Assembly (NCBI GenBank): GCA_019057475.1
Contig: DXJO01000018.1
Location: 1 to 64,000, forward strand
Direction: 5' to 3'
Origin: Candidatus Thorarchaeota archaeon
Lineage (GTDB): Archaea; Asgardarchaeota; Thorarchaeia; Thorarchaeales; Thorarchaeaceae
DNA: 64,000 nt
The stretch's first letter is position 1. Each line of letters begins with the position of its first letter. The notes beneath the pieces are model-generated. The model made no database searches and was not told where the DNA came from. It saw only the letters and a list, made by a program, of their open reading frames with translations. The translations under genes and the position numbers were made by a program. Positions 7,089-64,000 of this stretch are shown piece after piece.

Positions 7089-7270
7089 GTTTGACACCAG
7101 AGAGAAAGAAACACGTTGGCTTAAAAGACACAAGACAAGATACCAAACTGAGCAAGAAGAAAACGTTAGTGTCAACCGTTGCACGAAAGATAGCAATGGG
7201 GATACCCCTAAATGATCGCGAGAGGACAATGCTACAGGTCATGGCTACACTCAATGAGGAGGGCGAGTAG
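7085..7270 (+). CDS. Hypothetical 61-aa basic protein
   Basis: ATG overlaps the previous stop (ATGA) after GGAGGAG. Basic N-terminus, a short amphipathic C-terminal helix (LNDRERTMLQVMATLNEEGE). Small size and coupling are typical of plasmid or viral accessory genes. No family recognised. Confidence 0.5.
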   Translation: MSLTPERKKHVGLKDTRQDTKLSKKKTLVSTVARKIAMGIPLNDRERTMLQVMATLNEEGE

Positions 7271-7271
7271 G

Positions 7272-7649: not shown

Positions 7650-7654
7650 TAAAC

Positions 7655-8437: not shown

Positions 8438-8440
8438 TCA

Positions 8441-8471
8441 GGCCGGTTAGACTGGCCGCCTTCTTTTTTTT
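8441..8471 (+). terminator. Hairpin and T-tract terminator
   Basis: GGCCGG-TTAGA-CTGGCC (8441-8457, one G-T pair) followed a few bases later by a run of T with one C (8461-8471). It lies directly after the stop of the nuclease gene and would end the replication operon. Confidence 0.7.
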
Positions 8472-9119: not shown

Positions 9120-9122
9120 TAG

Positions 9123-44786: not shown

Positions 44787-45757
44787 CAGAACTCGTGCCT
44801 CCTCCAGCAAGCAACGCAGTGGCCATTCTCGCATTCAAGAGGTGGTACTTCCTGTCTACACCTGTCAACAGCGAAATCACACCTGGGATTGAATCTGCAA
44901 CCGCTTGGCGGATTAATGAGGTCCGGTGGATTTCCAGGAATGAAGTCTATCTCCTTATCGACTAGAATACTCGGAAATGATGAGATGAGTTTCTTCGTAT
45001 ACGGATGCTCAGGCATTGTGAAGATAGTATCAGTGCGGCCAGTTTCTACAATACGCCCTGCATACATTATGATGATTCTGTCACAAGTTTCAGCCAGAAC
45101 AGACAGGTCATGAGTAATCAGGAGGACTGATAGATTGGTCCTATCCCTCAACTGGTTAAAAAGGTCGAGAATCTGCGCTTGGACCATAACATCTAAAGCT
45201 GTCGTTGGCTCGTCCGCGATTATGATGGACGGATGGCAGACCAAAGCCAAAGCAATCATCAGGCGTTGCTTCATTCCACCGCTCAATTCATGGGGATATG
45301 AAGTGGCACGTGCAGGGTCGATTCCAACTGATTTGATCAACTCAAGCGAGCGCTCTTTCGCCTCCTGTTCTGTCACATCCTCGTGAATACGCAATGCAGT
45401 GATCATTTGGTCTATAGCCTTGTGGACTGGATTCAGAGCATTCATCGCTCCTTGGAATACCATGGAAATATCACGCCAACGAAGTGCTTCGACCTTTTTT
45501 GTATCATAGTCAAGTATGTTCTCGCCCTTGAATAGGATGACCCCTTCTTCCACCTTGCCCTCTTTGGGCAGCAAATGCATCAATGACAGCGCTGTAGTTG
45601 TCTTCCCGCAACCTGACTCGCCGCTCAGCCCTATGAACTCACCACGATGAATCCTGAAGCTAACATTCTCAGCTGCCTTCACTTTGCCCTGCTTGGTTTC
45701 GTAGGTGATTCGCAGGTTTTTCACCTCGAGGAAAACTTCGCGTTTTGTGTCAGCCAT
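44786..45757 (-). CDS. oppD: Oligopeptide ABC transporter ATPase (OppD/DppD)
   Basis: 323 aa: Walker [10 protein letters not shown] (about 40), LSGGMKQR (about 161), Walker [13 protein letters not shown] and the C-terminal CRFNPRCDF Cys cluster of the family. Ten bases downstream of the fused permease; overlaps oppF by one base. Confidence 0.9.
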
Positions 45758-45766
45758 GTCCTCGCA

Positions 45767-48624: not shown

Positions 48625-50529
48625 TCAGCCTCTCCGTTTCATGTATACGATGCCTATGATCACGATTACAACCACAGCTATTCCAACGAGGGCAATCATC
48701 TCTATCGGGAACGCGGATGGCAAAAGGACATACACGTCAGCCTCAAGCCAAGACATCCAGTTCCAAATGGAAAAGATTCCTGATTCCCAGTCTGTATGAG
48801 CGAACTCCCATCTGTCGCTTCGATAGATTTCTAGGTCATTGAACTCCACAAGGATACAGACGCTGGCCTCATCATAGACAAGCTGCTGCATCTCATCGAT
48901 CAGGTCCTCACGTTCACTATCGTCAGCGAGCTTTTGCTCTGCATAGATTTCGTCTACGCGTGCAATGGAGAGTCCAGTCGGGTTAATCCAGCTCGGGGTT
49001 GTCATATACTGAGCGATGCTGTTGGGATCTGCTATCTGGGAATAGAACGTGACTGCCAGGTCGAAGTTTCGGCTACCCGCTGCGGTGTCAGTCACGAAGG
49101 TTGTTGTGTCAACTGCCTGAAGGGTTATGCCAAAGCCAGCAGCCTCAAGATCCGCCTCTATCAGTTGAACCATGCTCAGGTCAACCGGCGCGCCTGAAAC
49201 ATACTTCAAAGTAAACTCAAGAGCCTTGGTTGATCCATTGAGATCCTTTTCGTAGACCCCTCCGGTATTCTTAACCCAACCGTCCGCCTCAAGAGTTGCC
49301 ATCGCTTCAGCTGTACCAGCATCAAAGGTCACTAGTGCATTGTTGAACCATTTGAGTGTACTATGAACAACAGAGTCTGCAGGCTGAGCATGGTCCAGAT
49401 AGGCAATTTGAGCAATCTTTGTCTTGTTGATTGCCTGATTGATTGCCTTCTTGACCGAAAACTCACGCAACGCGAATTTGTCAGTCGTATTGCAGTAGTA
49501 CCAATCCTGGTCTATGAGTAGAGCTTCCCATCCAAGGAACGGGTTCTCATTGAGAGTAACTCCCTCAGTAGTTCCTAGAGACTCCAAGAATGGAGCTTCA
49601 GTTTCGCAGAAGTCGATTTCACCAGCCGCAAGAGCTTGTGTCATTGTTTCGATAGAGCTGTAGAACAGCACAGTAATGTTGTCGATGTTAGGGCGTCCCC
49701 ATTGATAGTCCTCATTTGCTTCAAGGAATGCGTACTCTCCGATTACGTACTCGGAAAGCTTGAACATGCCAGTGCCGACTTCTGGTGTGTCAAAGGTCGG
49801 TACAATAATGTTCCATGAGATTCCATCCCAGTTCAGGTAGTCCCAGTAGCCCCACGGGTCATAGCCGGTACCATTCAAACCCCACACGGGGTCGTTCCAT
49901 GTGATGGGGTCCCAGAGGTGCATCGGAAGTATTGGAACGTACGTAAGACCTGTAAGTAAGTACTCCTGGTTGACCTCGACAGGCGTACTATCGTATCGCT
50001 CATTCCAGTAATAGAAAGGAGCGCCAGCCATCCACGAATAGATGCTTGCGTACCCATTCTGCACGAAGTTAAGCACAACAGTATAGTCGTCAGGGCACTT
50101 GATGTTATAGTGATCGATGTGACCTGTTTGAGCTACCCACCAGCCCAACCATGTCCAAGTGAAGAGTGTCCAATTGACATCCGCTGACGTAAATGGAGTT
50201 CCGTCGTGCCATGTGGCATTCTGAACCAAATGCAAAGTCAGTTGAGTACCATTTTCAGCCCATTCCCAGGATTCTGCAAGGCCTCCCGTCACTCCCCAAT
50301 CATCATCCCAGCGCGTTAGCGGGTCATAGATCCAGTTGAAAAATTCCCATGAGGCTATGCTTCCCGCAAGAATTGGGTTCAGGTAGTCGGGCTCACCAAA
50401 CATACCCAGTTTGAATGGCTTTCCTGTTTCTTCTTCTTGCGCAACCACTTGCATCGGCGTATTGGCTAATACGGGTAGAACCATGGCCAGAACAAGAAGT
50501 AACGCGAGAATGTATTTTCGTCTTTTCAC
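48625..50529 (-). CDS. ABC transporter solute-binding protein, family 5
   Basis: 634 aa from the GTG at 50529, which begins a signal peptide (KRRKYILALLLVLAMVLPVLA); an ATG at 50607 would bury it. Family 5 marks include YLNPIL (about 47), ENGTQLTLHLVQNATWHDGTPFTSADV and a later duplicated ligand-binding fold. A C-terminal transmembrane helix (LVGIAVVVIVIIGIVYMKRRG) anchors it in the membrane, as in many archaea. Family 5 proteins bind peptides, opines or nickel. Three in-phase GAACA sites lie upstream. Confidence 0.88.
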   Translation of the reverse strand: MKRRKYILALLLVLAMVLPVLANTPMQVVAQEEETGKPFKLGMFGEPDYLNPILAGSIASWEFFNWIYDPLTRWDDDWGVTGGLAESWEWAENGTQLTLHLVQNATWHDGTPFTSADVNWTLFTWTWLGWWVAQTGHIDHYNIKCPDDYTVVLNFVQNGYASIYSWMAGAPFYYWNERYDSTPVEVNQEYLLTGLTYVPILPMHLWDPITWNDPVWGLNGTGYDPWGYWDYLNWDGISWNIIVPTFDTPEVGTGMFKLSEYVIGEYAFLEANEDYQWGRPNIDNITVLFYSSIETMTQALAAGEIDFCETEAPFLESLGTTEGVTLNENPFLGWEALLIDQDWYYCNTTDKFALREFSVKKAINQAINKTKIAQIAYLDHAQPADSVVHSTLKWFNNALVTFDAGTAEAMATLEADGWVKNTGGVYEKDLNGSTKALEFTLKYVSGAPVDLSMVQLIEADLEAAGFGITLQAVDTTTFVTDTAAGSRNFDLAVTFYSQIADPNSIAQYMTTPSWINPTGLSIARVDEIYAEQKLADDSEREDLIDEMQQLVYDEASVCILVEFNDLEIYRSDRWEFAHTDWESGIFSIWNWMSWLEADVYVLLPSAFPIEMIALVGIAVVVIVIIGIVYMKRRG

Positions 50530-50626
50530 AAATATCACATCCAGTGAAGGACTGGGCTGAAATACACGGTGTACAATGATTAAAATCCACCGAACAACAG
50601 TGAACAACCATGAACATGGCTAGGCA
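50530..50626 (-). promoter_or_regulatory. Operator candidate: three GAACA half-sites spaced 10 bp
   Basis: (C/T)GAACA begins at 50591, 50601 and 50611, the same face of the helix. It stands before the binding-protein gene start at 50529. GGTGTACAATGATT nearby resembles the 59.09-kb element. Likely control site of the transporter operon. Confidence 0.55.
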
Positions 50627-51583
50627 TCATCGCTTCTTTACGCGGTACACAGCTAATGCCACGATGACAAGCAATGTAGCCGCAATGGCAACTGACTGTT
50701 CAAATGACAATCCCAACGTTGGAGGTGGAGTGGTTGATGATTCGAAACCCTCCACTAGCCACAGGGAGACCTTCATCATCATATCCCATTCGGAGCCCTG
50801 GTCATCAAACTCATTCTCCCAAATGCTGTTATCTCTCTGAGAGTCCTCCTCCCACTCTGGGTGAGGTCCAGAAAGGAACACGCGGCCAGAGTCGTATTCA
50901 AATGCGACCATTGCAGACTGGTTATTGACCGAGAATGTCGCCAGCGTGTGAATCCCATTTTGGCTCTCGCTTTCGAAGTAGGGTCCACCGTAGTACATGA
51001 CTGAATGCGTGGAGGGCTCTCCAGAGAAGTCGATGATATCCGAACTATGATTCACACTTATCTCGCACATATCGTAGTTTGGCCAGCTAGCAATCTCCTC
51101 GATTGAACCCACTCCCGTACCATCGAAGAGGTCAAGTGAATAATCATGGGTTGTTCCTTCCCAGGTGATCTTATCACAGGCAAAGTAAGCTCCAGCACAC
51201 ACACCAAAGAATGCGCCTCCCTCCCTCACAAACCGTCTAATCTCCGCAATTCCAATAGAGCCCAATTCATTGTTGTAGGTGACCGCCCAACCGCCCGGGA
51301 TGACTACCATGTCGTAGTTCGACAGTTTTCCGTCAATGATGTCTGAGGCATAGAGCAGGTCTGTACTTGCATTCATCCACTGAAACATGAATGTCAACGC
51401 GTTTCTACTACTCTGACTTGATGATTGGTCACCAAAGTAGACAGCCACGCTTACCCCTGAAAGGTCGATCCGATTAGCTGGTGTTTGGGCTTGAGTATTA
51501 GTGGCTAGAGTAAGAATGAACATTACTACAACTGCAAGTGCGACAAATGAGCGATAAGTTCTTGTGATGGCTTCAAGCTTCAT
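50627..51583 (-). CDS. Exported BPL_N/glutamine-amidotransferase-like protein
   Basis: 318 aa from the ATG at 51583 (51601 possible). Signal peptide at 1-32 (FVALAVVVMFILTLATN). The core matches the biotin-ligase N-terminal-like amidotransferase fold: YDMVVIPGGWAV (about 88), FFGVCAGAYFAC with the nucleophile-elbow Cys (about 128), and VFLSGPHPEWEEDS with His/Glu (about 240). C-terminal transmembrane helix and basic tail. So a class I amidotransferase-like domain faces outside the cell. Its neighbours are transporter and peptidase genes; perhaps a peptide amidase (inference). Confidence 0.75.
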   Translation of the reverse strand: MKLEAITRTYRSFVALAVVVMFILTLATNTQAQTPANRIDLSGVSVAVYFGDQSSSQSSRNALTFMFQWMNASTDLLYASDIIDGKLSNYDMVVIPGGWAVTYNNELGSIGIAEIRRFVREGGAFFGVCAGAYFACDKITWEGTTHDYSLDLFDGTGVGSIEEIASWPNYDMCEISVNHSSDIIDFSGEPSTHSVMYYGGPYFESESQNGIHTLATFSVNNQSAMVAFEYDSGRVFLSGPHPEWEEDSQRDNSIWENEFDDQGSEWDMMMKVSLWLVEGFESSTTPPPTLGLSFEQSVAIAATLLVIVALAVYRVKKR

Positions 51584-51654
51584 TGAGAACCGACCGGACA
51601 TATTGATTGCAGTCGCGTACTAATCTAGCCTTATTGCTCTTTAGCAATGCGCAG

Positions 51655-51725
51655 CACTCTTGTTCAATCGTGAACACGGATGTTAGCACTCTTCATATCA
51701 TTGTTCATATCAAATACAGTACAGC
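51655..51725. promoter_or_regulatory. Control element, copy 1 (inverted relative to copy 2)
   Basis: On the minus strand this reads nearly the same as 59031-59100: 48 of 55 bases agree in the core, including TGCTAACATCCGTGTTCA (18 in a row), and GCTGTACT is shared at the far end. It holds TGTTCAATCGTGAACA, a palindrome of two half-sites. It sits between the divergent genes starting at 51583 (minus) and 51789 (plus). Confidence 0.7.
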
Positions 51726-51788
51726 CTGATATCAGTACTTCTTCAAACGGGTCTGGATGAAAAGAACCCCTATAGGAGTTGTCAAAGA

Positions 51789-53084
51789 ATGGTTGACGCC
51801 AAGGAAATCATGAAGAAAGACAAAGAGTACCTAGCAGCAGTCTATTCTCGTAAGCCAATCGTTGTATACGAAGGAAAGGGCGCAATTGTCAAGGATCTTG
51901 AAGGGCGAGAATATATCGATTGTTTGAGCGGCATCTCAGTTGTAAATGCCGGACATACGCCTGAACGCTTAGTGAGAGCAGGAACTGAGCAAATGAGAAG
52001 ACTCTGGCATTGCTCTGGCCTGTATTACAGCGTTCCTCAGACACTGCTTGCGGAAAAATTGGCCAGCATTGCACCGGGCGCACTCAGGAAATCTTTCTTC
52101 TGCAACAGTGGTGCTGAGGCGGTTGAGGGGGCTGTCAAGCTAGCAAAGAAGTTCGCGATATCTGAAGGTCGTACTGGAGCAGGTGTCATTGCCCTTGAGG
52201 GCTCATTCCACGGCAGACTTGCCTTATCTCTGACTTTGACCGGTCAAGCCAAGTACAAGAAAGGATTCGGGACATTCGCCAACCACCCGGGAGTTGTACA
52301 TGCTCCAGCACCCTATTGCTATCGATGTCCTCTGTCATATCCTGATTGTGGCGTTGAGTGTGCACGGAAGGTCGAGGACATCATCAAATACCACACAACT
52401 GGCGATGTAGCGGCGATGATAGTGGAACCAGTGATGGGTGAGGGAGGGATCATTGTACCGCCTGATGGATATCATGCAGAATTGCAGAAGATATGTCACG
52501 ACCATGAAATCCTCTTCATTGCGGATGAAGTGCAGACTGGCTTTGGCAGAACTGGCAAGATGTTTGCAAGTGACTTTTGGGACATCAAGCCCGATATTAT
52601 GACAATGGCGAAGGGGCTGGGGGCTGGCCTACCCATAGGCGCTGTGATGTATACTGATGAGATTGTGAGATGTTTGGTGTCAGGGGACCACTTCTCGACA
52701 TTTGGCGGAAATCCTGTTTGCTGTGCTGTTGCGCTGGAAAACATAGCATATTTGCAGGAAGAAGGGCTCTTGACCAATTCCAAGCATATTGGGAAGCTGC
52801 TCATGGAAGAGCTGCTATCCTTACAGCAGAAAAACGACATGATTGGAGATATCCGAGGAAAGGGGCTCATGATTGGCGTAGAGCTCGTGAAAGATAAGAC
52901 TTCCAAGAAACCCGCTGTTGAGCAGACAAAGAAGGTTGCAAAGGAAATGTTCAACAACAACATCCTGATAGGCACAGGTGGGGTCCACAGCAATGTCCTA
53001 CGCATACAGCCTCCGCTTTGCCTTTCAGACGAACAGGCCAAGAAAGTGTTGGACCTCCTAAAGGAGCAGCTGGGGGATCTCTAG
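51789..53084 (+). CDS. Class III aminotransferase (PLP)
   Basis: 431 aa with the fold-type I pattern: NSGAEAVEGAVKLAKKF (about 101), FHGRLALSLTLTG, DEVQTGFGRTGK (about 247), and TMAKGLGAGLPIGA with the PLP Lys (about 274). It carries an internal Cys-rich stretch CYRCPLSYPDCGVEC (about 177-192), probably a small metal or disulfide loop. Relatives include 4-aminobutyrate, beta-alanine/alanine-glyoxylate 2 and ornithine aminotransferases. First gene of a four-gene plus-strand operon with two hydrolases and an amidase. Confidence 0.85.
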   Translation: MVDAKEIMKKDKEYLAAVYSRKPIVVYEGKGAIVKDLEGREYIDCLSGISVVNAGHTPERLVRAGTEQMRRLWHCSGLYYSVPQTLLAEKLASIAPGALRKSFFCNSGAEAVEGAVKLAKKFAISEGRTGAGVIALEGSFHGRLALSLTLTGQAKYKKGFGTFANHPGVVHAPAPYCYRCPLSYPDCGVECARKVEDIIKYHTTGDVAAMIVEPVMGEGGIIVPPDGYHAELQKICHDHEILFIADEVQTGFGRTGKMFASDFWDIKPDIMTMAKGLGAGLPIGAVMYTDEIVRCLVSGDHFSTFGGNPVCCAVALENIAYLQEEGLLTNSKHIGKLLMEELLSLQQKNDMIGDIRGKGLMIGVELVKDKTSKKPAVEQTKKVAKEMFNNNILIGTGGVHSNVLRIQPPLCLSDEQAKKVLDLLKEQLGDL

Positions 53085-53111
53085 GGATCACCAAGACTTG
53101 GAGGCTTTGAG

Positions 53112-54884
53112 GTGGAAAAGACTTCGATTAACCGCATCGAGGATACAATCAGGGGGCTTTGTCAGTTCGAGAATAGGATAGCCGGGTCCAAGAATGAAGC
53201 GCGTGCTGCGGAGTTCCTCATCAAACGTCTTCAAAGTTGTGGCATTCAGGATGTCAAAGAAAGCTCATTCTCTGTAATCAGCTGGAAACCCGTGAACTGC
53301 CAAGTCATGATTATTGAACCGCTTCGGCGAAAGATTGAGGCTGCACTCTTCCCTTGCTCTCCAAGCGCAGAAAGCAATGGCAATCTGATGGCAATCGATC
53401 AAACGTCCAATGAAACACTGAACAACGGGAGCCAGATAGGCCTTTCGCCTTGGGGTAAGCTGCTGTATCAATCAGTCACGACCGCCTATCATCAGGCTGT
53501 GAAACTCGGGCTTGAAGCAGTCCTGATTTCCGCACCCGATGATGGCGACCTGAGGAAGGTTGTAATCGTTGATTCTGGAGGGTCTTTGAAAATACCAGTG
53601 ATCAGCATCTCAAAGGAAGACGCGTCTTTTCTTTCAGACCTGATGGGGAGCTCGAAAGTTGTTCTTGAAGTAAGAACTGAAGTCGATGTGGACCCTGAGG
53701 CCCAGTCCAAGAATCTGGAAGTCGTAATCGAAGGAAACAAAGAATCTGAGCACGAGATTTGCATAGGGGCGCACTATGATGCTTGGTTCAAGGGCGCGGC
53801 TGACAACGCTGCACCAGTAGCTGTTGTCCTCGAACTCGCCCACCTTCTGAATGAATATGTCGTTAATGGAGGATCCCTGCTCAGAACTGTTAGGTTTCTA
53901 TTCTTTGGGGCTGAAGAGAGCGGATCAACGTCCTTCTATTACTGGATCAATGGCTCCAAAGCCTATGTAGCAGCCAACAAGGATACTGTGATCAAGACCG
54001 CGGCAATGCTCAGTTTGGATTCAATCGGATTCCCCCCTCCTGCTCCAAACAGTATCGGAGCTACTGGGGGTCTTCTTGCATTCGCTAAGAGCATTCAAGC
54101 TGGCCATGGAAATGCTTCCAATGTCACGTTCTTTGGTCCACCCGGATACGGAAGCGATCACTGGTTCTTCGAGATATCCGGCGTTCCAACAATTTACGGT
54201 CTAGCTTTTCCAAGCAAATTCTACCATACACAGAAAGACGACCCTGACAATTTGGACTACGACGGTGTGCATTTTCACGCGGAGTTCATGCGGAGCGCGC
54301 TATTCACCTTGGCAAATGCGCCTTTGTTGCCTCTCGACATGTTTGGTTCCTTGACGGAAATCGAGCGGATACTCACGCATTACAATGAGATGAAGGATTG
54401 TCCTTTTGATACAGCAAGTGTGGTGGCTAAAATTAAGCAGATTTGGGGCAAGAAGAAAGCCTTTGAGAAGGCTGCAAAATCCGCAATCGCCGCCAATAAC
54501 ACGAAGCTACTGGAAAAGATGAACCGGTTCCATGTGTTGACTGCTCGTACATGCAACCGTACAATAGGACGGACTCTGCGAAGCTCATCTTCTTCCGGTG
54601 TTAGCTATTTGGCAAGATTGGAATTGATTGCAGATTATATGGAAATCCGCGCAGCCGTCAACAGGTTAAAACAGATGCCAATCGCAAATCTAGCAAATGA
54701 AACAATCAAGAGACTTGAATCACAAGAAGACAACCCATTCAGCTGGGTTTCGATTCATGAACCGTTGGGAACCCTTGAGAAAGAAGCAGCTCGGATATCA
54801 CGTGTGGTGGAAAACGAGCTCACTAACCTGTTAGAAGCAATCGATGCTATTTGGCAAGATATGGAAGAACTAGTATCAGAATAG
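53112..54884 (+). CDS. M28-family zinc peptidase
   Basis: 590 aa, no signal peptide, so cytosolic. Zinc ligands: GAHYD (about 219), AADNAA (about 231), GAEESG (about 268), SLDSIG (about 302), GSDHWFF (about 354). The family is aminopeptidases (Streptomyces/Aeromonas type, PSMA-like). The N-terminal about 130 residues form a PA-like lid (GKLLYQSVTTAYHQAV) and about 410-590 a helical domain. Paralogue of the gene at 57153-58928. Confidence 0.82.
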   Translation: MEKTSINRIEDTIRGLCQFENRIAGSKNEARAAEFLIKRLQSCGIQDVKESSFSVISWKPVNCQVMIIEPLRRKIEAALFPCSPSAESNGNLMAIDQTSNETLNNGSQIGLSPWGKLLYQSVTTAYHQAVKLGLEAVLISAPDDGDLRKVVIVDSGGSLKIPVISISKEDASFLSDLMGSSKVVLEVRTEVDVDPEAQSKNLEVVIEGNKESEHEICIGAHYDAWFKGAADNAAPVAVVLELAHLLNEYVVNGGSLLRTVRFLFFGAEESGSTSFYYWINGSKAYVAANKDTVIKTAAMLSLDSIGFPPPAPNSIGATGGLLAFAKSIQAGHGNASNVTFFGPPGYGSDHWFFEISGVPTIYGLAFPSKFYHTQKDDPDNLDYDGVHFHAEFMRSALFTLANAPLLPLDMFGSLTEIERILTHYNEMKDCPFDTASVVAKIKQIWGKKKAFEKAAKSAIAANNTKLLEKMNRFHVLTARTCNRTIGRTLRSSSSSGVSYLARLELIADYMEIRAAVNRLKQMPIANLANETIKRLESQEDNPFSWVSIHEPLGTLEKEAARISRVVENELTNLLEAIDAIWQDMEELVSE

Positions 54885-54902
54885 GAAAATGGAGGAATCA
54901 GA

Positions 54903-55793
54903 GTGGCAAGAAAACTGGGTGTGGCTGGTCTTCAGTTGAAGAAAGACTTTAGCGACGCAGAGTCCAATATCATCAAATTCGAAACTATGACACGAACAGC
55001 AAAGGCGTCATATCCATGGGTGGATCTAATTTTCACTGGTGAACTATACCTTCAACAGTATGGAACCAAAGATTGGAAGGATTTCGCTGAGCCCATCCCA
55101 AATACTTTGACTGATCGACTATCGCGTCTTGCTAAGAGAACTCATTGCTGGTTGGTTCCTGGCTCCTTTCTCGAGCGAGACGGTTCGCGAATCTTCAATA
55201 CCTCGATTGCGTTCAATCCAGACGGGGAGATAGTAGTGAAGTACAGGAAGATTTTCCCATGGGCTCCACACGAAGATACGGATCAAGGTACCGAGTTCAT
55301 CACATTCGACATCCCCGGAATAGCAAGAGTAGGCATGACCATTTGCTACGATTTATGGTTCCCAGAGTTGTTCAGGACACTTGCATGGATGGGATCTGAA
55401 GTCATTCTGCAGCCGTCTGCGACATACACCCCTGATAGGGACGCCGAGTTGATTCTAACGCCAGCTCAGGCCATCATGCACCAATGCTATATTCTCAATG
55501 TGAACACAATCAGTCCTCACGGAGGAGGACGGTCGATGTTTGCAGATCCAGAAGGGTATGTTATCCAGAAGACTGGCACTCACGAGGAAATGATGATTGA
55601 GGTCATTGATATAGACAAGGTTGCATGGATCCGACAACATGGTTCCTTCGCACTCAACCCGGTTTGGAAGAGCTTCAGGGACTCGCCCTTGAACGGGAAA
55701 TTCCCGCCGTATGAGAATCTACAAGACGGCGAGATACTCAAGACACTCGGGGAAATGAAGCTTCAGAAGAGTATCAGAGATTGGGACGTTTAG
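54903..55793 (+). CDS. Nitrilase-superfamily amidase
   Basis: 296 aa with the Glu-Lys-Cys triad: Glu in FTGELY (about 47), Lys in KYRKIFPWAP (about 115), Cys in GMTICYDLWFPE (about 147). Carbon-nitrogen hydrolases cut amides or N-carbamoyl groups to release ammonia. The context with an aminotransferase and M20 hydrolase suggests breakdown of an amide- or ureido-containing amino compound (inference). 18 bp after the M28 gene with GGAGG in the gap. Confidence 0.85.
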   Translation: MARKLGVAGLQLKKDFSDAESNIIKFETMTRTAKASYPWVDLIFTGELYLQQYGTKDWKDFAEPIPNTLTDRLSRLAKRTHCWLVPGSFLERDGSRIFNTSIAFNPDGEIVVKYRKIFPWAPHEDTDQGTEFITFDIPGIARVGMTICYDLWFPELFRTLAWMGSEVILQPSATYTPDRDAELILTPAQAIMHQCYILNVNTISPHGGGRSMFADPEGYVIQKTGTHEEMMIEVIDIDKVAWIRQHGSFALNPVWKSFRDSPLNGKFPPYENLQDGEILKTLGEMKLQKSIRDWDV

Positions 55794-55811
55794 ACCCGGG
55801 AGACAGCTAAC

Positions 55812-57101
55812 ATGTCAGATAAGGGTGAAGTAGTTAAGGAGTGGATACGAGAGCATAGCGACTCGCTAATCACTCTGACTCAAGAACTAGTTCGCATCCC
55901 CAGCATCACCGGACACGAGTTTAATGTTCAGGAATACATCCTGAAGCGCTTAGATCGCCTAGGTCTCGAGCCATGGATGGTTCTGCCAGATGTCGATGTT
56001 TTAAGAAAGGACGCCGACTTCTTTGAAACATCGTCTTTCGTCAAGTATGGATACGAGAACCGACCCAACGTTGCCGGCATCCTTAAGGGGTCCGGCAATG
56101 GCCGGTCGATATGTCTTAGCGGGCACGTTGACGTTGTATCCCCAGAGCCCGTTGGCCAGTGGTCCTATGACCCTTGGTCTGGTGAAGTTGACGACGGGAT
56201 GATCTATGGTCGAGGGGCAGGCGATATGAAGGCAGGTATCGCCGCCATGATTATCGCATTGGAGGCAATCAGGAGGGCCGACGTCAAGCTAAAGGGCGAT
56301 GTTCATGTGGAAACGACAATTGAAGAAGAGGATGGTGGAGTAGGCGGCAATCTCTACATGAGACTGACGCAACCACGAACGGATGGTGCGATAAACCCCG
56401 AACCAACCAGCCTACAGATTGGCATGGCTAGTGCAGGAGTCATGTACTTTAGGGTAATTTCCTTCGGCGTCCCAGCCCATGCTGCCACTGCGCACTTTGG
56501 AGTCAACGCAATACACAAGATGCTTCCCCTCATTGAGGCGCTTCGAACTCTAAATGAAAGGAGACAACAGAGAATCTCCTATGCTTATGCCGAAGCTATG
56601 AGTCCTAGGATGAAAGGGCGAGTGACCACAATCAACATAGGAGTTGTTAGGGCGGGCGATTGGCCCTCAACAGTTCCAGGGACATGTGAGATAGAATGCA
56701 GAATAGGCTGGCCGCCCGGGGAAACCCGGGAGGAAGTGATGAGTGAAGTTGAAGAGTGCATAACAAACGCATATCAGAATGACTCATGGCTCCGCGACCA
56801 TCCTCCCAAGGTGGAGTGGTTCGGATGGCGGGCAAGGCCCCACGAGCAAGACGTCCAAGATCCGTTTGTCCTTTGCATAAGAAACCAAATTGCAAAGGCG
56901 ACTAAGAAAAGCCCAGTCCTGTACGGAGGTTCAGCAGGCCTTGATACGCGATTTTTCGTGAACCATGGCACTCCGGCTGTGACATTCGGACCTGCCGCGC
57001 AAAGAATTCATTCGTTTGATGAATGCGTGAGCATTGAGTCAATTGTGACGACAGCTGAAGTGATAGCTGCAACGATAATGGACTGGTGTGGTGTGGCCTA
57101 A
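55812..57101 (+). CDS. M20-family metallohydrolase (ArgE/DapE-like)
   Basis: 429 aa. Two-metal site: SGHVDVV (about 104), RGAGDMKAG (about 137), TIEEEDGGVGG (about 172-176), then NPEPTS (about 197) and a final IHSFDE His (about 405). The inserted dimerisation domain is at about 205-320. Family members deacylate amino acids or cut dipeptides and N-carbamoyl amino acids. Last gene of the operon; the convergent M28 paralogue is 50 bp on. Confidence 0.85.
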   Translation: MSDKGEVVKEWIREHSDSLITLTQELVRIPSITGHEFNVQEYILKRLDRLGLEPWMVLPDVDVLRKDADFFETSSFVKYGYENRPNVAGILKGSGNGRSICLSGHVDVVSPEPVGQWSYDPWSGEVDDGMIYGRGAGDMKAGIAAMIIALEAIRRADVKLKGDVHVETTIEEEDGGVGGNLYMRLTQPRTDGAINPEPTSLQIGMASAGVMYFRVISFGVPAHAATAHFGVNAIHKMLPLIEALRTLNERRQQRISYAYAEAMSPRMKGRVTTINIGVVRAGDWPSTVPGTCEIECRIGWPPGETREEVMSEVEECITNAYQNDSWLRDHPPKVEWFGWRARPHEQDVQDPFVLCIRNQIAKATKKSPVLYGGSAGLDTRFFVNHGTPAVTFGPAAQRIHSFDECVSIESIVTTAEVIAATIMDWCGVA

Positions 57102-57152
57102 TTTCGCTAATCGCAGAAACACCTGTTCCTGGAAACTGCAGACTTTTCGCTC

Positions 57153-58928
57153 TTACATTCCAACTATCTTCGACATGCCTTTGGAGATTCCACTGAGGAG
57201 GTCCGAAAGGTTGGATAGTTCCTTCTCTATCTGTTGGAACACTCTGGATCTTTCTTGTTCCAGCTTCGCAAGGGGCTCATGAATCCTAATCCAGTTGTAG
57301 GGATTCTCCTTCTGCACTTCAAGTTTGGCGACAGAGTGATGCCCTATGTTCGCAATTGGCATGCCACGCAGAGCGCTAATTGCTCGGCTTAGGTCAACAT
57401 AATCGGCAATCATTTCCAAGCGAGAAAGATAGTCTACATCGTCAGGAGCCTTTTGCCGCCAGATCCAACCGATTGTTCTGTTAAGCGAGTTTGCAGTGGA
57501 AAGCAGGAACTCATTGATTGCCGCAATTCCGTTTGAGTCACTTTTCTCACTCACATCCTTTAGGGATTTCAAGAACTTCTGTTTCATTCCCGCAATCCGG
57601 TCCAGCTTCTTTAGGAGTGGTGCTAAGTCAAATGGACTATCCGTTCTTCTGCTATGTTCAAACAGAATTCCACGGAATCGCTCCAGAAGCGGGAAGATGT
57701 CAATTGGCAGCAAATCTGCGTTTGCTAGGCTGAGCAATGCCTTCCTAATGAACTCAGCAAAGAAGTGGACTGCTTGATAGTCCAAGTTCTCAGGACTGTC
57801 CTCTTGCGTGTGATACAACGGACTCGGGAATGACACACCGTACACTGAAGGGACACCGGAGATTTCAAAGAACCAGTGGTCACTACCATACGCTGGGGGA
57901 TCGTAGTAGTCTACTCGCGAAGCAATCTTTGAGCCGACTTTCAGATTCCTAACAAAATCAAGGAGTCCAGTCGTAGCAGCAATGTAGTTCTTAGCAGGAG
58001 TTGGATAGCCCACTGAATCCAACGATAAGAAGGAAGCGGCTTTCTTAACTATATCTTGGTTTTCCCTGACGAATGCTTTTGACCCGTTGCACCAGTAGTA
58101 GAAGTCCATAGAGCCGCTCTCCTCAGCCCCAAAGAATAGGAACCTAACCGTTCTCTTGAGCTCTCCTTCGTTTTGCCTATACTCATGAAGGAGCCTTGCG
58201 GTTTCGAGAACTATCGCCGCAGAAGCTGAATTGTCAGCGGCTCCTTGGAACCATGCGTCATAGTGGGCACCAATCAGAATCTCGTGGTCTGATGAGCCGT
58301 TGCCCGCCACTGTGACCATAAGATTGCGCGACCGTGCTTTCGCGGACCAGTCAACCTCTGTACGCAACTCAACGACAACATCATCCGACTCCAAAAGGTC
58401 GAAGAGAAACTCGCCATCTTCCTTGGATATGTTAATCATTGGTATCTTCAGAAGACTGCCTGAAGATATGACAACAACCTTGTGCAGATTGCCGTCATCA
58501 GGAGAGGAAACAATCAAGCCTTTGGCATCCTGATCTAAGGCATGGAAGTAGGCTCTCATCGGTCCAAGGTAAAGCTCTGTTCCCCACCTAACTAGACCAA
58601 TCGTGTCGCTATCTTTCTCTAGGATTCCGGAGTTGATTTGGTGAAAGGGCGCAAGTCGTCCCTTTATTTCTGCACCTTGTGAGTGGGGGAACACAACTGC
58701 CTTGATGTCCTTGCGAACCGGCTTGATGACCTTGAGTTGGCAATGTGTAGGTTGCCACCGATGAACCTCGAACTTACTCTCCTTGATTTTGGTGATTCCG
58801 AAGCTGGCAAGTCGGCTTTTGATGTATTCCGCAGCCTTCGCTTCACTCTCGGTCCCTGCAATCTTGTTTCCTATGGCACTAAGACCTTCAACGGTTTTCC
58901 TAATTTCGTCGATAGACGTCGGTTCCAA
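57153..58928 (-). CDS. M28-family zinc peptidase, paralogue
   Basis: 591 aa from the TTG at 58928, five bases after GGAGGA, which gives an N-terminus like the 53112 gene (about 50% identical by eye along the length). Same ligands: GAHYD, AADNSASAA, GAEESG, SLDSVG, GSDHWFF. No signal peptide. Two copies flanking one operon suggest recent duplication with different substrates or regulation. The promoter faces the 59.03-kb control element. Confidence 0.82.
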   Translation of the reverse strand: MEPTSIDEIRKTVEGLSAIGNKIAGTESEAKAAEYIKSRLASFGITKIKESKFEVHRWQPTHCQLKVIKPVRKDIKAVVFPHSQGAEIKGRLAPFHQINSGILEKDSDTIGLVRWGTELYLGPMRAYFHALDQDAKGLIVSSPDDGNLHKVVVISSGSLLKIPMINISKEDGEFLFDLLESDDVVVELRTEVDWSAKARSRNLMVTVAGNGSSDHEILIGAHYDAWFQGAADNSASAAIVLETARLLHEYRQNEGELKRTVRFLFFGAEESGSMDFYYWCNGSKAFVRENQDIVKKAASFLSLDSVGYPTPAKNYIAATTGLLDFVRNLKVGSKIASRVDYYDPPAYGSDHWFFEISGVPSVYGVSFPSPLYHTQEDSPENLDYQAVHFFAEFIRKALLSLANADLLPIDIFPLLERFRGILFEHSRRTDSPFDLAPLLKKLDRIAGMKQKFLKSLKDVSEKSDSNGIAAINEFLLSTANSLNRTIGWIWRQKAPDDVDYLSRLEMIADYVDLSRAISALRGMPIANIGHHSVAKLEVQKENPYNWIRIHEPLAKLEQERSRVFQQIEKELSNLSDLLSGISKGMSKIVGM

Positions 58929-59030
58929 AGGTTCTCCTCCTCGCTCGTGGCGAGTCCAACTAGTGATGCGAGCTCTTCCAAAGCTAAACAGCATGGGATC
59001 TCACATGACACTTCACGATTAGCGCACTAT

Positions 59031-59140
59031 GCTGTACTACATGCTTATGAACAACGATATGAAATATGCTAACATCCGTGTTCATGATTGTACAAGAGCG
59101 TACGCTTCAAGTTGTTCAAGTCTGTTCAAGAGTGTTAGGT
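59031..59140. promoter_or_regulatory. Control element, copy 2, plus tandem half-sites
   Basis: 59031-59100 matches the reverse of 51655-51725. Just downstream, TTCAAG starts at 59106, 59115 and 59125, 9 and 10 bp apart, followed by GTTAG. It separates the M28 gene (minus) from the corrinoid-protein gene (plus), so it can serve both. Confidence 0.7.
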
Positions 59141-59200
59141 TTCTTTTTCTACATGTTCACATCATCGTGACCATTGATGCGATTCTGTGAGTAGACACGT

Positions 59201-59848
59201 ATGAATGACTCCGTCAATAAGCTAAAGGAAGCTGTTATCAAAGGTGACTACAAAAACACCCCTGACCTCGCCAGAGAAGCTCTCGAGGCAGGTGTATCCC
59301 CTATTGAGGTTCTTAAGAAAGGGATTACAGACGCGGCTACGATTGTAGGGGATCAGTTTGAGCGGATGGAGATATACCTCCCGGAGCTGATGATGTCAGG
59401 AAAAGCAATGATGGCAGGCATTGATGTCATTCTACCCAGGATTTCGTCTAGCGATGATGTAATCAAGGGCAGGGTCGTTGTTGGAACTGCGCTAGGAGAT
59501 GTACACGAGATTGGCAAGAACATTCTCAAGGTTCTGCTAATCGCTAGTGGTTTCGAGGTAAGCGACCTGGGAGTGAATGTTCCCACTTCCAAGTTTATTC
59601 AGGAAGCAGAGAGAATCAACGCAGACATAATTGCAATATCTGCCCTGATGACTTCCACACTGGGAGGACAGAAAGATGTCATCGATTATCTGCGAGAAAC
59701 AGGGAAACGTGACAAATACATCATAATGGTGGGTGGAGGTCCGACCAACAAGCAGTGGGCAGACACGATAGGTGCCGATGGCTTTGCAGAATCAGCTCCT
59801 GATGCAGTCAGGGAGGCAATTAGGTTGATCGAAGAACGGAGGGGATAG
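59201..59848 (+). CDS. Methyltransferase corrinoid protein (MtmC/MtbC/MttC type)
   Basis: 215 aa: helical N-terminal cap (about 1-85, GDYKNTPDLAREALEAG) and a B12-binding domain with the D-x-H-x-x-G signature in GDVHEIGKN (about 101), SDLGVNVP and VGGGP (about 176). It carries the methyl group on cobalt between substrate methyltransferase and a methyl acceptor. Followed two bases later by the MtmB homologue, the expected partner. A methyl-corrinoid:acceptor methyltransferase and a RamA-type activator are not in the window. Confidence 0.88.
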   Translation: MNDSVNKLKEAVIKGDYKNTPDLAREALEAGVSPIEVLKKGITDAATIVGDQFERMEIYLPELMMSGKAMMAGIDVILPRISSSDDVIKGRVVVGTALGDVHEIGKNILKVLLIASGFEVSDLGVNVPTSKFIQEAERINADIIAISALMTSTLGGQKDVIDYLRETGKRDKYIIMVGGGPTNKQWADTIGADGFAESAPDAVREAIRLIEERRG

Positions 59849-59850
59849 AT

Positions 59851-61230
59851 ATGCTGCCTGTCATAGAGATAACAAAGCGGTGTCTTGAAGGAACACCATG
59901 CCTTGAGAGTGACTTTGACCTAGAGATTTTCGCACCTAGAGTCAGAGAGCTTGTCAAGGAATATGGCATAGCATATGACACTGATGTCATTGTGCCCTCA
60001 GACAACGGATTGGCGGACTCGGTGTTCAAGGCTGCCGTGGAATTGGTTGTTGATGTGGGGATGTTCTGCAAGGATACAGAGCGGATTGTCAAGTTTGAAG
60101 AGCAGGAGGTCCGGAAAGCAATCAAGACCGCTCAACGAGAAACCACCTTCGGTGAAGGCGAGGAACGGAGAACACTGCGCTCACGAACTCCAGAATCCAA
60201 GGACCACCCGTGGATATTCGCGGGAGCAGGAGGGGTGACAGTATCAAATGAAAACATCTTCATGCGACTTGTTGAAAACTATGCCAGAATGATACCGAAA
60301 GCCAATGCCATCACAACACCCTGTCTGCTTGAGGTGGATGGAATGAGCATTCGGGCGCGTTCGCCTCTTGAGATTGTGGGTTCAATTCGAACTGTGATGC
60401 TTGGCCGCGAAGCATTGCGAAGGGCGGAACGGCCAGGACTTCCCATTATGAATGGAATAAGCACTGCTGAATCGGCAGTTGCTCTTATCTCCGGATTGCA
60501 TCCTGATTTTGGGCTCAGAAAGTCAGACGGGTATATGATCTCCCTGTTAGCTGAGCTGAAGACAGACTTTGACCTGCTTAATCGTGCTGCACTGCTTCAA
60601 TCCATTGATGTCCCAATAGCCGGGATCTACGGGCCCATATTCGGTGGTTTCGCAGGTGGGGCTGAAGGGACTGCAATAGCATCGGTCGCGTTTCACATCC
60701 TAGCCATGCTCGCATATCGTGCTTCTTGGACCCTTTGTTTCCCCATCCATATCAAACACATTTCAAGCTCATCTCCTGAACTCATCTGGACCGCTAGTGT
60801 GTACTCACAAGCGGTTTCCAGAAACACTGAACTACCTGCGTTGTACTACCCCTACACCGCCGCAGGACCATGCACGGACATGGTTCTTCGGGAATTTGCC
60901 GCCCAGTTCATTGCGGCCATATCTTCAGGAGTTTCAATAGAAACAGGAGGCGTGGCGAAAGGAAAGTATTTCGACTATCTCACGCCGATTGAACCAATGT
61001 TCGGTTCAGAGGTTGCGTACGCAGCAGCAGGTCTAAAACGATCTGATGCAGATGATATGGTCAAAGAGCTACTATCCAGGTTCATAGAAAAAATCCCGAA
61101 CCCGCCGAAAGGGAGCAGGTTTCAAGAGTGCTGTGACCAGACAACAGGTAAGCCTTCAAAGAAGTGTTTCAGCATATACAAGAAGGTGAGGGATGAGGTC
61201 TCGGACCTCGGAATCGAGTTCTCCAGCTAG
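59851..61230 (+). CDS. MtmB-like methylamine methyltransferase lacking pyrrolysine
   Basis: 459 aa, the same length as MtmB (458). Matching blocks: opening helix after SDFDLEIFAPRVRELVKEYG, IVKFEEQEVRKAI, IFGGFAGGAEGTAIASVAFH, YYPYTAAGPCTDM, FQECCDQTTG, IYKKVRDEVSDLGIEF. MtmB from methanogens carries one pyrrolysine from an in-frame TAG; here the frame has only sense codons to the normal TAG at 61228. So the active-site amine chemistry must differ, as in non-Pyl MttB homologues (MtgB and others) that demethylate betaines. Substrate unknown. Good GGAGG-like site before ATG. Confidence 0.8.
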   Translation: MLPVIEITKRCLEGTPCLESDFDLEIFAPRVRELVKEYGIAYDTDVIVPSDNGLADSVFKAAVELVVDVGMFCKDTERIVKFEEQEVRKAIKTAQRETTFGEGEERRTLRSRTPESKDHPWIFAGAGGVTVSNENIFMRLVENYARMIPKANAITTPCLLEVDGMSIRARSPLEIVGSIRTVMLGREALRRAERPGLPIMNGISTAESAVALISGLHPDFGLRKSDGYMISLLAELKTDFDLLNRAALLQSIDVPIAGIYGPIFGGFAGGAEGTAIASVAFHILAMLAYRASWTLCFPIHIKHISSSSPELIWTASVYSQAVSRNTELPALYYPYTAAGPCTDMVLREFAAQFIAAISSGVSIETGGVAKGKYFDYLTPIEPMFGSEVAYAAAGLKRSDADDMVKELLSRFIEKIPNPPKGSRFQECCDQTTGKPSKKCFSIYKKVRDEVSDLGIEFSS

Positions 61231-61270
61231 CTACTATGAATTTCTTGACATGCACCGTGTAGACAGAGAT

Positions 61271-62413
61271 TTAATGAGAATGGCCTCGACCCGCTCCGTG
61301 CTGCTCACCGAAGTACAGAACAGCTGTGGCTTCGCCTTCTTCTCGGCTCATCTCCTCTATTCCGTCAAGACTTAGGAGACTCCGTATTAGCTTAATCGCG
61401 AGATCCTTTGTGACTGGGGTTCTAGATCTCACCTGAACCCGAACAAGGTCTCCATCCGCCGTGACATTGCATTTCTCAAGCAGCCCCGAAGATGTGACGT
61501 TCAGAGCTGACCTCCTGACCCGATCCAGAATAGTCATAGATACATCAGAACCAACCACATCTGGCTGAGGGCCAAAGTCCTTTATGCTAACTAGAGTTCT
61601 CTCTCCGATGGCATCATTGATTGTGTGAGTGGCCAACCACTCCAAGAGCGGCGGACAGAGAGTGGCACGTCCACTCTGACCGGCTTGCATGAGGAACCTC
61701 TCACGTCGGCTTTTCCAGGCTTCGAAGATTCTCCTGTCGCGGTTTCCTTTTAGAAACCGAAACTCGCGATCATCGACCCACCTTAAACTAACCTTATTCT
61801 CAGCAATAACTTCAACATCGACGGTATAGCCTGCTTCATCCCAACTTGCTAGGAGCAGGAGTAGAAGGGTTTCAGGCTGATTTCGCATCATCTTGATGGT
61901 AGCCATAACCGTTCTGCGATCCGAATAATCTTCAACAGACCTGAGAACTCCCATCGTTTCTAGCAACTGCACGTGGAGTACAAATGCCTCGTATGTATTT
62001 TCCCAAATTTCCTGAGGGACAGTGCCGAGTCTGCGCAGTAGCTTTGTCTGTTGAGTGCCAAGCTTGTCAATTCGATCCTTAAATTCGCTGGCTGAGAACC
62101 TTGTCTGTCCGAAATCTGACAGTGCATCAAAGAATGCCGACGCAGCAAGGCCCATGTCCGCAGCATCAACTAAGGAGGCCAAGAGCTTTGAGATAGCCTT
62201 GAATTCACAATCATCACAATCTGGTTGGTTTCGTCGAATGCTGTAATAGCCGATTGCTTCCTCAATGACTTCGTTAATGCGCCCAGTTTCGCCGCTTAGG
62301 GATTTTAGCAGATCTCTAGTTTGCGCTGACACAGTTGTATGGATGTGAACGCGAGGACCACCTTTCACATAACCACGAGGTGCTTCGTCCTGTGTGTTTG
62401 AAGTTTTTTTCAT
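61271..62413 (-). CDS. Transcription regulator with RHH-like N-terminus
   Basis: 380 aa from the ATG at 62413. Residues about 20-60 (RVHIHTTVSAQTRDLLKSL, GRINEVIEEAIGYYS) read as strand-helix-helix of an RHH. A CDDC pair follows at about 68. The rest is a helical and alpha/beta domain I cannot name (FLKGNRDRRIFEAWKSRRERF), ending in a His-rich tail (GAGRGHSH). The promoter region carries TGAACA (on the start codon), TGTTCA (62433) and TGAACA (62464), so it probably controls itself and the regulon around it (inference). Confidence 0.65.
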   Translation of the reverse strand: MKKTSNTQDEAPRGYVKGGPRVHIHTTVSAQTRDLLKSLSGETGRINEVIEEAIGYYSIRRNQPDCDDCEFKAISKLLASLVDAADMGLAASAFFDALSDFGQTRFSASEFKDRIDKLGTQQTKLLRRLGTVPQEIWENTYEAFVLHVQLLETMGVLRSVEDYSDRRTVMATIKMMRNQPETLLLLLLASWDEAGYTVDVEVIAENKVSLRWVDDREFRFLKGNRDRRIFEAWKSRRERFLMQAGQSGRATLCPPLLEWLATHTINDAIGERTLVSIKDFGPQPDVVGSDVSMTILDRVRRSALNVTSSGLLEKCNVTADGDLVRVQVRSRTPVTKDLAIKLIRSLLSLDGIEEMSREEGEATAVLYFGEQHGAGRGHSH

Positions 62414-62470
62414 GAACACACTCACCGATTCATGTTCAAGATGGCTCCTCTTAATGTGGCATGTGAACAT
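62411..62470 (-). promoter_or_regulatory. Operator candidate of the regulator gene
   Basis: TGAACA at 62413, TGTTCA at 62433 and TGAACA at 62464; the first overlaps the start codon. Same half-site as the elements at 50.6, 51.7 and 59.1 kb. Confidence 0.5.
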
Positions 62471-62547
62471 AAGAGTTCCGTAGAAGTGCCAAGACTGACT
62501 AGAAACGCCAAACGCCAGAGAATAATGCCAAATTCATATCATTCCCA

Positions 62548-63303
62548 TCAATGGGAAGTAAAGCCTCCATCTACTACGACCACGGCTCCGGTCATAAATG
62601 TCGATTCATCGCAAGCCAAGAAAAGCGCTGCTTGAGCAACTTCTTCAGGTGTTCCAAATCGTCCCATAGGATATGATTTCGTTCGCTCGTCGCGGACTAG
62701 CTCTGCATTGCCCTGCTTCTCCAGTACCCTGCGTAGCATTGGAGTTTCTATTGCTCCAGGACAGATGCAGTTTACACGGATATTGTCTGTAGCCAGTTCG
62801 ACAGCCAAGGTCTTTGTCATCGCAATGACTCCGCCTTTTGAAGCCGAGTAGGCGGGAGAGAAAGAACCCACTAAACCCGCGACGGAGGCATTGTTAATGA
62901 TGACCCCACCGCCATTCTTGATCATCTCTGGAATAGTATACTTGCAGCAGAGAAACACAGATTTGAGATTGACATTGATTGATCTATCCCATTCCTCCTC
63001 TGTTGTATCTTTCAGATTCTTGACAACTTCAACACCTGCATTGTTGAACAGCACATCGATTCTGCCAAATGCTAGTGCCTTTTCGACTAGTTTCTTGACT
63101 TCACTCTTTTCAGATACGTCAGTCTTAACAAAGACCGCCTCTCTTCCTGTTTGTCTAATCGCTTCAATAACCTCAAGCCCCTTTTCTTGATCAATGTCAG
63201 CTCCCACAATCCTTGCACCCTCTTGAGCAAAGAGCAATGCTGCGGCCCTTCCGATGCCAGAACTGATTCCAGTTATCAAAGCCACTTTCTCTTCTAGCTT
63301 CAT
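62548..63303 (-). CDS. Short-chain dehydrogenase/reductase
   Basis: 251 aa from the ATG at 63303. NAD(P)-binding TGISSGIG (about 10-17), D after GARIVGAD (NAD preference), NNAGVEV (about 90), the catalytic Ser-Tyr-Lys in ASVAGLVGSFSPAYSASKG. C-terminal FMTGAVVVVDGG is typical of the 3-oxoacyl-reductase/gluconate-dehydrogenase group. Substrate unknown. Follows the deacetylase gene closely. Confidence 0.9.
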   Translation of the reverse strand: MKLEEKVALITGISSGIGRAAALLFAQEGARIVGADIDQEKGLEVIEAIRQTGREAVFVKTDVSEKSEVKKLVEKALAFGRIDVLFNNAGVEVVKNLKDTTEEEWDRSINVNLKSVFLCCKYTIPEMIKNGGGVIINNASVAGLVGSFSPAYSASKGGVIAMTKTLAVELATDNIRVNCICPGAIETPMLRRVLEKQGNAELVRDERTKSYPMGRFGTPEEVAQAALFLACDESTFMTGAVVVVDGGFTSH

Positions 63304-63308
63304 CGTAT

Positions 63309-64000
63309 TCAGCCCATCCTCTTCTTCCAAAACTGACAAATCTCCAGAGGGGTTGCGAACCACACATCTTCTCGCGATTTCATGAGCTGGATTAGCTTCT
63401 CCAGCATCTTAGTTCTCGAAGGAATGCCGATTATTTGGGGATGCATTGCAAGCATAAAGTACAGCCCTTCGTCGTAAACCGCTTCGAATTCATCCGACCA
63501 TATTTCAAGGACCTTCCTGTGACTACTGATGCCGCTTTGGTATTCAAGAGGTGGGAAGTAGTTGAATCCAAAGTAAACCCAATCATCCAGTATCCAGCGA
63601 ATGGGAAGCTCTATAATCTTCTTATTTTCCGTCGCAATGGCGTACGGAACATCATCGCCCATCATGCTGCTATCGTAGATTAAGCCGTGCTTGGATAGCA
63701 GGTTAAGGGTGTTAGCACTCATGTCGGCTGCCGGCGCTCTGTATCCCATTGGCTTTTTGCCTGTAATCTCTTCCAGAACTTCAGTACCCTTCTCAAGTTC
63801 TTCCTTCTCCTCTAGAAGACTGCAGCTTGCAGGGTTTCTGTGGGAATATCCATGGTGTCCGACTTCATGTCCGTCCCCACTGATTTCCATCACGGTTTCC
63901 GGATATCTCTCGGCCACCTCTCCAGGGATGAAAAAGCCTGCCTTCAAATTGTGTGTCTTCAACAATCGCAGAATGCGGGGAACGCCTGCTTTGGGGCCGT
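63309..64000 (-). CDS. Polysaccharide deacetylase (NodB/PuuE-like), 5' end outside window
   Basis: The frame runs off the right edge: reading inward GPKAGVPRILRLLKTHNLKAGFF, then GHEVGHHGYSHRNP (His-x3-His metal site), GYRAPAAD, and a late MLAMHPQIIG His. The NodB fold hydrolyses N-acetyl groups of sugars or acts as allantoinase/peptidoglycan deacetylase. The catalytic Asp of motif 1 lies beyond the window. Stops 6 bp before the SDR start, an operon. Confidence 0.85.
   Translation of the reverse strand, partial: GPKAGVPRILRLLKTHNLKAGFFIPGEVAERYPETVMEISGDGHEVGHHGYSHRNPASCSLLEEKEELEKGTEVLEEITGKKPMGYRAPAADMSANTLNLLSKHGLIYDSSMMGDDVPYAIATENKKIIELPIRWILDDWVYFGFNYFPPLEYQSGISSHRKVLEIWSDEFEAVYDEGLYFMLAMHPQIIGIPSRTKMLEKLIQLMKSREDVWFATPLEICQFWKKRMG

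Follow-up and report, generated by a model that had tools for sequence, protein, structure and literature searches.

Asgard archaea are the nearest relatives of eukaryotes and, to our knowledge, few of their gene regulators have been studied so far. Among known regulators of the ribbon-helix-helix (RHH) class, NikR couples the DNA-binding fold to a C-terminal sensor. In archaeal viruses, RHH regulators mostly repress, occluding the BRE, TATA box or transcription start site (TSS) (review PMC5569661). On the metabolic side, MtqB provided the first function shown for a non-pyrrolysine MtmB, namely tetramethylammonium/choline demethylation, and non-pyrrolysine MtmBs have also been noted in Asgard archaea (PMC13044021). 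Our literature searches found no described Asgard regulon of the kind considered here.

We analyzed 64,000 nucleotides of a Candidatus Thorarchaeota archaeon (contig DXJO01000018.1; hereafter the window), in which a preliminary description had proposed that repeated TGAACA/TGTTCA sites join a transporter, an aminotransferase operon, a pair of M28 peptidases, a corrinoid/MtmB pair and a regulator in one regulon. The sites it quoted are present: GAACA at 50592, 50602 and 50612, the 51.66-kb and 59.05-kb elements, TTCAAG at 59106-59130 and TGAACA at 62413, overlapping the start codon of the regulator. Our overall explanation, to which we give a probability of about 0.82, is that these arrays are operators of the RHH protein encoded at 61271-62413, which would control its own gene and four further promoters.

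We asked what the repeated signal is. The bare TGAACA hexamer was rejected, being weakly over-represented in the window (62 occurrences against 48.6 +/- 6.9 expected, a number reached by 5 of 100 shuffles). The signal is instead the helically phased array of TGWWCA sites: pairs 10, 31 and 41 bp apart occur 4, 5 and 4 times, against Markov expectations of 0.16, 0.08 and 0.11 (a 25- to 60-fold excess), and other spacings are nearly empty in the window. This phased pairing is far from chance. The phased arrays of the preliminary description are thus real, but their unit is TGWWCA within a 47-bp module in which a TATA-like box always keeps the same register. The module, TGWWCA-N4-TGWWCA-N4-TGTT(R/C)G-N15-TGWWCA, fits all four metabolic promoters, which have in common sites at positions 0, 10, 20 (weaker, TGTTRG) and 41 and a TATA-like box at positions 31-37.

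All four operators match the pattern exactly. The operator of the SBP5-DppBC-DppD-DppF transporter operon (50570-50616, minus strand) reads TGTTCA-N4-TGTTCA-N4-TGTTCG-N15-TGTACA, with TATA-like TTTTAAT at 50585-50579. The one preceding the aminotransferase-M28a-CN hydrolase-M20 operon (51661-51707, plus strand; TATA-like TTCATAT at 51692-51698) is possibly shared with the divergent BPL_N gene. As a correction to the preliminary description, the region 59.0-59.2 kb, lying between divergent genes, holds two back-to-back operators, one per gene: that of the M28b peptidase (59048-59094, minus strand; TTCATAT at 59063-59057) and that of the corrinoid protein-MtmB operon (59113-59159, plus strand; TTTTTCT at 59144-59150). 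The 51.66-kb and 59.05-kb elements are very similar over about 55 bp and a promoter duplication may have occurred; in addition, some TGWWCA sites form inverted repeats 31 bp apart.

Searching the whole genome (3.34 Mb) with up to 3 mismatches returned the four window operators, with 0 mismatches, and one match with 3 mismatches, while the reversed-pattern control of the module gave 0 matches in the same genome. In a two-site search, the remaining 10-bp and 31-bp TGWWCA pairs outside the locus were near the reversed-pattern control. Unrelated genes in this genome thus showed no such operator in front of them. Across 28 operators from the family of the window, identity is 100% in the core site letters and 32% in the N4 spacers, although the site letters were fixed by the collecting pattern, so that the fair comparison is with the regulator promoter footprint, aligned without the operator-pattern filter, and with the absence of TGATCA. 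This word makes up 19 of the 87 TGWWCA words in the window, yet none of the 84 operator sites, which are TGTTCA, TGTACA or TGAACA. The fourth site lies directly downstream of the TATA box in 28/28 operators. TGWWCA clusters collected over 436 kb showed spacing peaks at 10, 20-21, 31, 41 and 51-52 bp, and about 41 of the 45 clusters fall at predicted promoters.

The regulator gene (61271-62413, minus strand) encodes 380 aa with an RHH-like N-terminus (residues ~20-59), a CxxC and a long sensor region. Its start is most likely at 62413 and not at 62470, which makes the array found there its promoter instead of coding sequence. This predicted autoregulatory array (62413-62473, minus strand) has sites at positions 0, 31 and 51, that is, TGTTCA at 62469-62464 inside a TATA-like CTTATG, TGAACA at 62438-62433 and TGTTCA at 62418-62413, overlapping the ATG. 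TGWWCA sites occur in the regulator's own promoter in 8/8 genomes and, when these eight promoters were aligned as a footprint, the three hexamers were the sole invariant blocks.

At the protein level, the N-terminus carries an RVHIHTTVS strand within a conserved RVHxHTTIS...LL..LAGETGRINDVLEEA pattern. The AF2 model places helices at residues 30-39 and 46-58 but shows no strand in the monomer, and its pLDDT is low at the N-terminus. Support for the RHH class from sequence profiles is weak (Pfam RHH_3, E=0.11 only, in 2 of 12 family members); the full regulator had no Pfam, NCBIfam or PDB sequence match, and the RHH segment by itself, searched against PDB sequences, returned nothing beyond low-complexity or coiled-coil chance matches. 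The best reading is nonetheless that of a putative RHH one-component regulator with an undescribed sensor domain, considering the strand-helix-helix pattern, the two predicted helices, the weak RHH_3 score and, above all, the behavior of the operators. The CxxC (C66, C69) is invariant in orthologues and recurs in f9 proteins, a conservation suggesting a possible metal or redox role. The sensor region was modelled with good confidence, residues 66-245 forming helices followed by a ββ-α-ββ unit. Its best natural matches were H-NOX, a Thorarchaeota TRAPPC3 and BcsD (Foldseek probability 0.8-0.99, TM 0.35-0.45), with E-values of about 0.01-0.03 or worse and with de novo designs scoring equally, and so the H-NOX/V4R/TRAPP-Bet3/BcsD fold group is a lead from modelling, not an assignment. 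An internal duplication of the sensor (two ββ-α-ββ units in the model) was rejected, as profile-profile comparison gave no support.

Downstream of the transporter operator, SBP5, the family 5 solute-binding protein (48625-50523, minus strand; PF00496, 3.8e-52), likely starts at the GTG at 50523. It is followed by a Dpp/Opp-type ABC transporter assigned by sequence (43776-48523, minus strand), conserved beside SBP5 in relatives and composed of a fused permease (45767-48523) and two ATPases (44786-45757 and 43776-44834). In relatives, a hairpin with a U-tract, TGAACAGACAG...CTGTCTGTTCA (-19 kcal/mol, z -4.2), lies between SBP5 and the permease gene (L044:4338-4364, L046:14156-14182, L148:9728-9752); it is probably a partial terminator, and its likeness to the operator word is due to chance or reuse. 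The aminotransferase operon, on the plus strand, encodes a class III aminotransferase (51789-53084; PF00202, 2e-119), M28 peptidase a (53112-54884; PF04389, 9.1e-29), a carbon-nitrogen hydrolase (54903-55793; PF00795, 2.7e-31) and an M20 ArgE/DapE-type deacylase/peptidase (55812-57101; PF01546, 6.6e-32; TIGR01910 above cut-off); divergent from it is a secreted BPL_N/GATase1-like protein (50627-51601, minus strand; PF09825, 9.1e-26). M28 peptidase b (57153-58931, minus strand; PF04389, 3e-29) probably starts at a TTG near 58931, judging from its paralogue.

The last operon encodes a methyltransferase-cognate corrinoid protein (59201-59848, plus strand; PF02310/PF02607) and a MtmB homologue without pyrrolysine (59851-61230, plus strand; PF05369, 1.4e-95; MtmB1 alignment, 1.7e-65). 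The corrinoid protein has a B12-binding and a cap domain of MtxC type, scores just under the NCBIfam cut-off (TIGR02370, 2.3e-60, 203 bits against 215) and matches solved MtmC-type structures (monomethylamine corrinoid protein, 3.2e-44). The MtmB homologue has no in-frame stop and carries Asn/Met, conserved in orthologues, where MtmB1 has Pyl202; a search of the genome for PylS gave nothing above cut-off and one sub-threshold aminoacyl-tRNA-synthetase-like match. Peptidases and the corrinoid/MtmB pair do belong to the putative regulon, but the label of methylamine-type metabolism calls for caution: lacking pyrrolysine, the MtmB homologue is probably not a monomethylamine enzyme. The most economical guess at the substrate, a tentative one, is a methylated or quaternary amine that is bound to a peptide-like compound or set free from it, and the ligand of the regulator might, just as tentatively, be a peptide-like or N-methylated/quaternary amine compound. 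Placing an orphan non-pyrrolysine MtmB in a context of peptide-type uptake and hydrolysis narrows the search for its substrate. Another Asgard genome (G057:C4; L026, L030, L032) carries three paralogous MtmBs, 36-41% identical and free of in-frame stops, of which at least two have no TGWWCA arrays nearby. The SDR dehydrogenase and polysaccharide deacetylase-like genes (62548-63965) are conserved neighbors of the regulon in several relatives, and no array directly precedes them in the window.

We also looked for the regulon in relatives. Orthologues of the regulator (45-54% identity) were found in seven relatives of the same family, all Thorarchaeota, and in 7/7 of them TGWWCA arrays precede both the regulator and the corrinoid/MtmB operon. 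Arrays were also found before the other genes in relatives where those contigs exist: before the orthologous SBP5 in G011, G019, G025, G027, G032 and G029, before the aminotransferase in G011, G019, G025, G027 and G032, and before M28 genes in G019, G025, G027 and G029 (the comparison leaves aside the M28 locus of G003, whose contig is too short). Each proposed member, that is, the transporter, the aminotransferase operon with M28a, M28b, corrinoid/MtmB and the regulator, therefore carries an array in at least one relative. The scan covered 228 genomes of the Asgard phylum, 47 of them in the window's family. Within this family the 47-bp pattern was present in 8/8 genomes with a full-length regulator against 2/39 without (Fisher 1.4e-7, a value that overstates independence, as several genomes share ancestry) and in 0/37 of the other family genomes; the reversed pattern had two matches in all 228 genomes against about 40 for the operator. 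The non-pyrrolysine MtmB orthologue occurs in the same 8 of the 47 genomes as the regulator. In the two exceptions, G011 and G219, operators are present and neither the regulator nor MtmB was detected; these genomes are 87% and 85% complete, so that absence there is unproven. Moreover, in G027 the regulator and corrinoid/MtmB lie at 0.706-0.710 Mb and the aminotransferase/M28/SBP5 transporter locus at 2.09 Mb, 1.38 Mb apart, both with the module, which points to regulation in trans. The regulon of G019 is likewise split over two contigs, with the same operator at unlinked targets. Taken together, shared operators, their conservation in relatives with the same genes and the arrangement in G027 support the regulon of the preliminary description about as far as computation can go.

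To account for these observations we propose that RHH dimers would occupy TGWWCA sites spaced by roughly one helical turn, with a row of three immediately upstream of the TATA box and a fourth immediately downstream of it, and that an occupied operator would cover BRE and TATA on one face of the DNA; at the regulator's own gene the sites overlap the TATA-like box as well as the start codon. TBP/TFB would be kept off the promoters until the sensor region binds a substrate or a degradation product, and release would turn on together Dpp-type uptake, hydrolysis (M28, M20, CN hydrolase), transamination and corrinoid-dependent demethylation. That the arrays are bound by the 61271-62413 protein appears very probable. 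Repression is, in our judgement, the probable mode, though with less assurance, and substrate-relieved repression is favored because archaeal viral RHH regulators repress in this way (PMC5569661).

As the main alternative, the protein could instead be an activator or a dual regulator, its dimers at 0/10/20 recruiting TBP or TFB where the TATA box is weak. Three of the four sites do lie upstream of TATA boxes that are themselves variable, and recruitment of TBP from upstream sites is an established way of activation in archaea. We consider this unlikely: the invariant fourth site downstream of TATA and the overlap of the regulator's own array with TATA and start codon both favor occlusion, in line with the mostly repressive action of the characterized viral proteins.

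Another possibility is that the arrays are bound by a different protein, such as a paralogue or a general factor, with the neighboring RHH gene being merely a target, as the arrays of G011 and G219 might suggest. This is improbable considering the 8/8 co-occurrence of regulator and operators, and evidence from other Asgard families also argues against it. Remote homologues there share mainly the N-terminal segment (their main common feature being the HLHTT strand), and the HxHTT strand is invariant over 12 sequences. Upstream of several of these remote RHH genes lie TGWWCA arrays, with TGTACA repeated every 21 bp in five f9 genomes, a 10/31/41 spacing in G204 and one of 10 in G140. No obvious array was seen at two remote homologues, G136 and G205:C239. 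G052 and G121 each have a second array, located before the adjoining gene, which in G052 encodes a glutamate dehydrogenase. In addition, scanning with the operator only led to two loci, G133:C211 and G205:C265 (L158, L175), where an operator of the same 0/10/20/41 geometry with a TATATATTTAT box separates a solute-binding protein gene from a divergent RHH gene of the HLHTT type. Both RHH genes were absent from the protein search results; the DNA pattern thus found regulators that the protein search missed, and these finds amount to a blind test of the putative RHH-TGWWCA link. Of eleven operator matches outside the window's family, about 7 have no RHH neighbor on a quick look and may be due to chance.

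Returning to the RHH protein as the binding factor, we lean slightly towards an undescribed Asgard-wide family of one-component regulators, defined by the invariant HxHTT strand, with TGWWCA arrays around TATA and with sensor regions that vary and may belong to the H-NOX/V4R/TRAPP fold group, controlling the use of amines, amino acids or other nutrients. If so, the targets would be MtmB and peptidases in Thorarchaeota and, in further Asgard families, glutamate dehydrogenase as well as an ABC transporter. In another Asgard family, TGWWCA arrays stand ahead of the genes for a glutamate dehydrogenase and a 646-aa RHH protein (L050:7896-7941, L050:9784-9831, L081:12419-12464), adjoining an acyl-CoA synthetase-like gene; this arrangement is a probable second regulon of the same regulator family.

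RNA elements (a leader hairpin, attenuator or riboswitch), which the inverted repeats might recall, are very improbable, as the sites lie at or upstream of TATA, their orientation varies without compensation, folding was no better than in shuffles (z -0.26 and 1.18) and no Rfam match was found. Chance, or recent duplication of one promoter, can be practically dismissed despite the likeness of the 51.66-kb and 59.05-kb elements, since the spacers of the other operators are unrelated while their sites are invariant, and the reversed pattern is so rare.

Elsewhere in the window, a DISARM-type anti-phage system (21151-30727) comprises DrmA (0), DrmB (1.4e-162), DrmC (1.1e-40), together with a C5 methyltransferase that matches MTase_II/DrmMII; a 469-aa protein without match (27425-28834) and an endonuclease III-like protein (28831-29565) lie in between. 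By eye, the region 245-9803 looks like an integrated plasmid or virus-like element, with a ParB-like protein, a large primase/helicase-like protein (2119-5412), a nuclease-like protein and an integrase-like C-terminus (9150-9803).

The analysis thus yields a candidate regulator, a conserved set of targets and an operator whose geometry with respect to the TATA box is exactly defined, and short DNA and one protein would suffice to test them in vitro. Compared with known systems, the pair formed by the non-pyrrolysine MtmB homologue and its corrinoid protein resembles, by description, MtqB/MtqC of Methanococcoides methylutens Q3c (PMC13044021), but MtqB demethylates for methanogenesis, whereas the present pair occurs alongside peptidases and a transporter of the peptide type in an organism that is not a methanogen. 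The modelled sensor may be similar in fold to the H-NOX/V4R/TRAPP-Bet3/BcsD group, but with E of about 0.01 or worse. F55, SvtR and AvtR of archaeal viruses (PMC5569661) show the cooperative RHH occupation of repeats over BRE/TATA/TSS and the autoregulation predicted here; they are, however, short viral proteins without a sensor domain that use other sites (ATAGATAG etc.), while the present protein would be a cellular metabolic regulator. The paper on CdrS, a haloarchaeal RHH protein, gives no motif with which TGWWCA could be compared. With MetJ, CopG, Arc and NikR the regulator has in common short near-palindromic sites that recur at a fixed spacing, predicted autoregulation and, putatively, an RHH-like strand-helix-helix N-terminus; it differs from them in TGWWCA sites at a pitch of about 10 bp with a 21-bp step over TATA, an undescribed sensor, an archaeal TBP/TFB promoter and the lack of a Pfam RHH match above cut-off. 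In conclusion, this is probably a tandem-site RHH regulator of known type, and what is new is the sensor family and the operator bracketing the TATA box.
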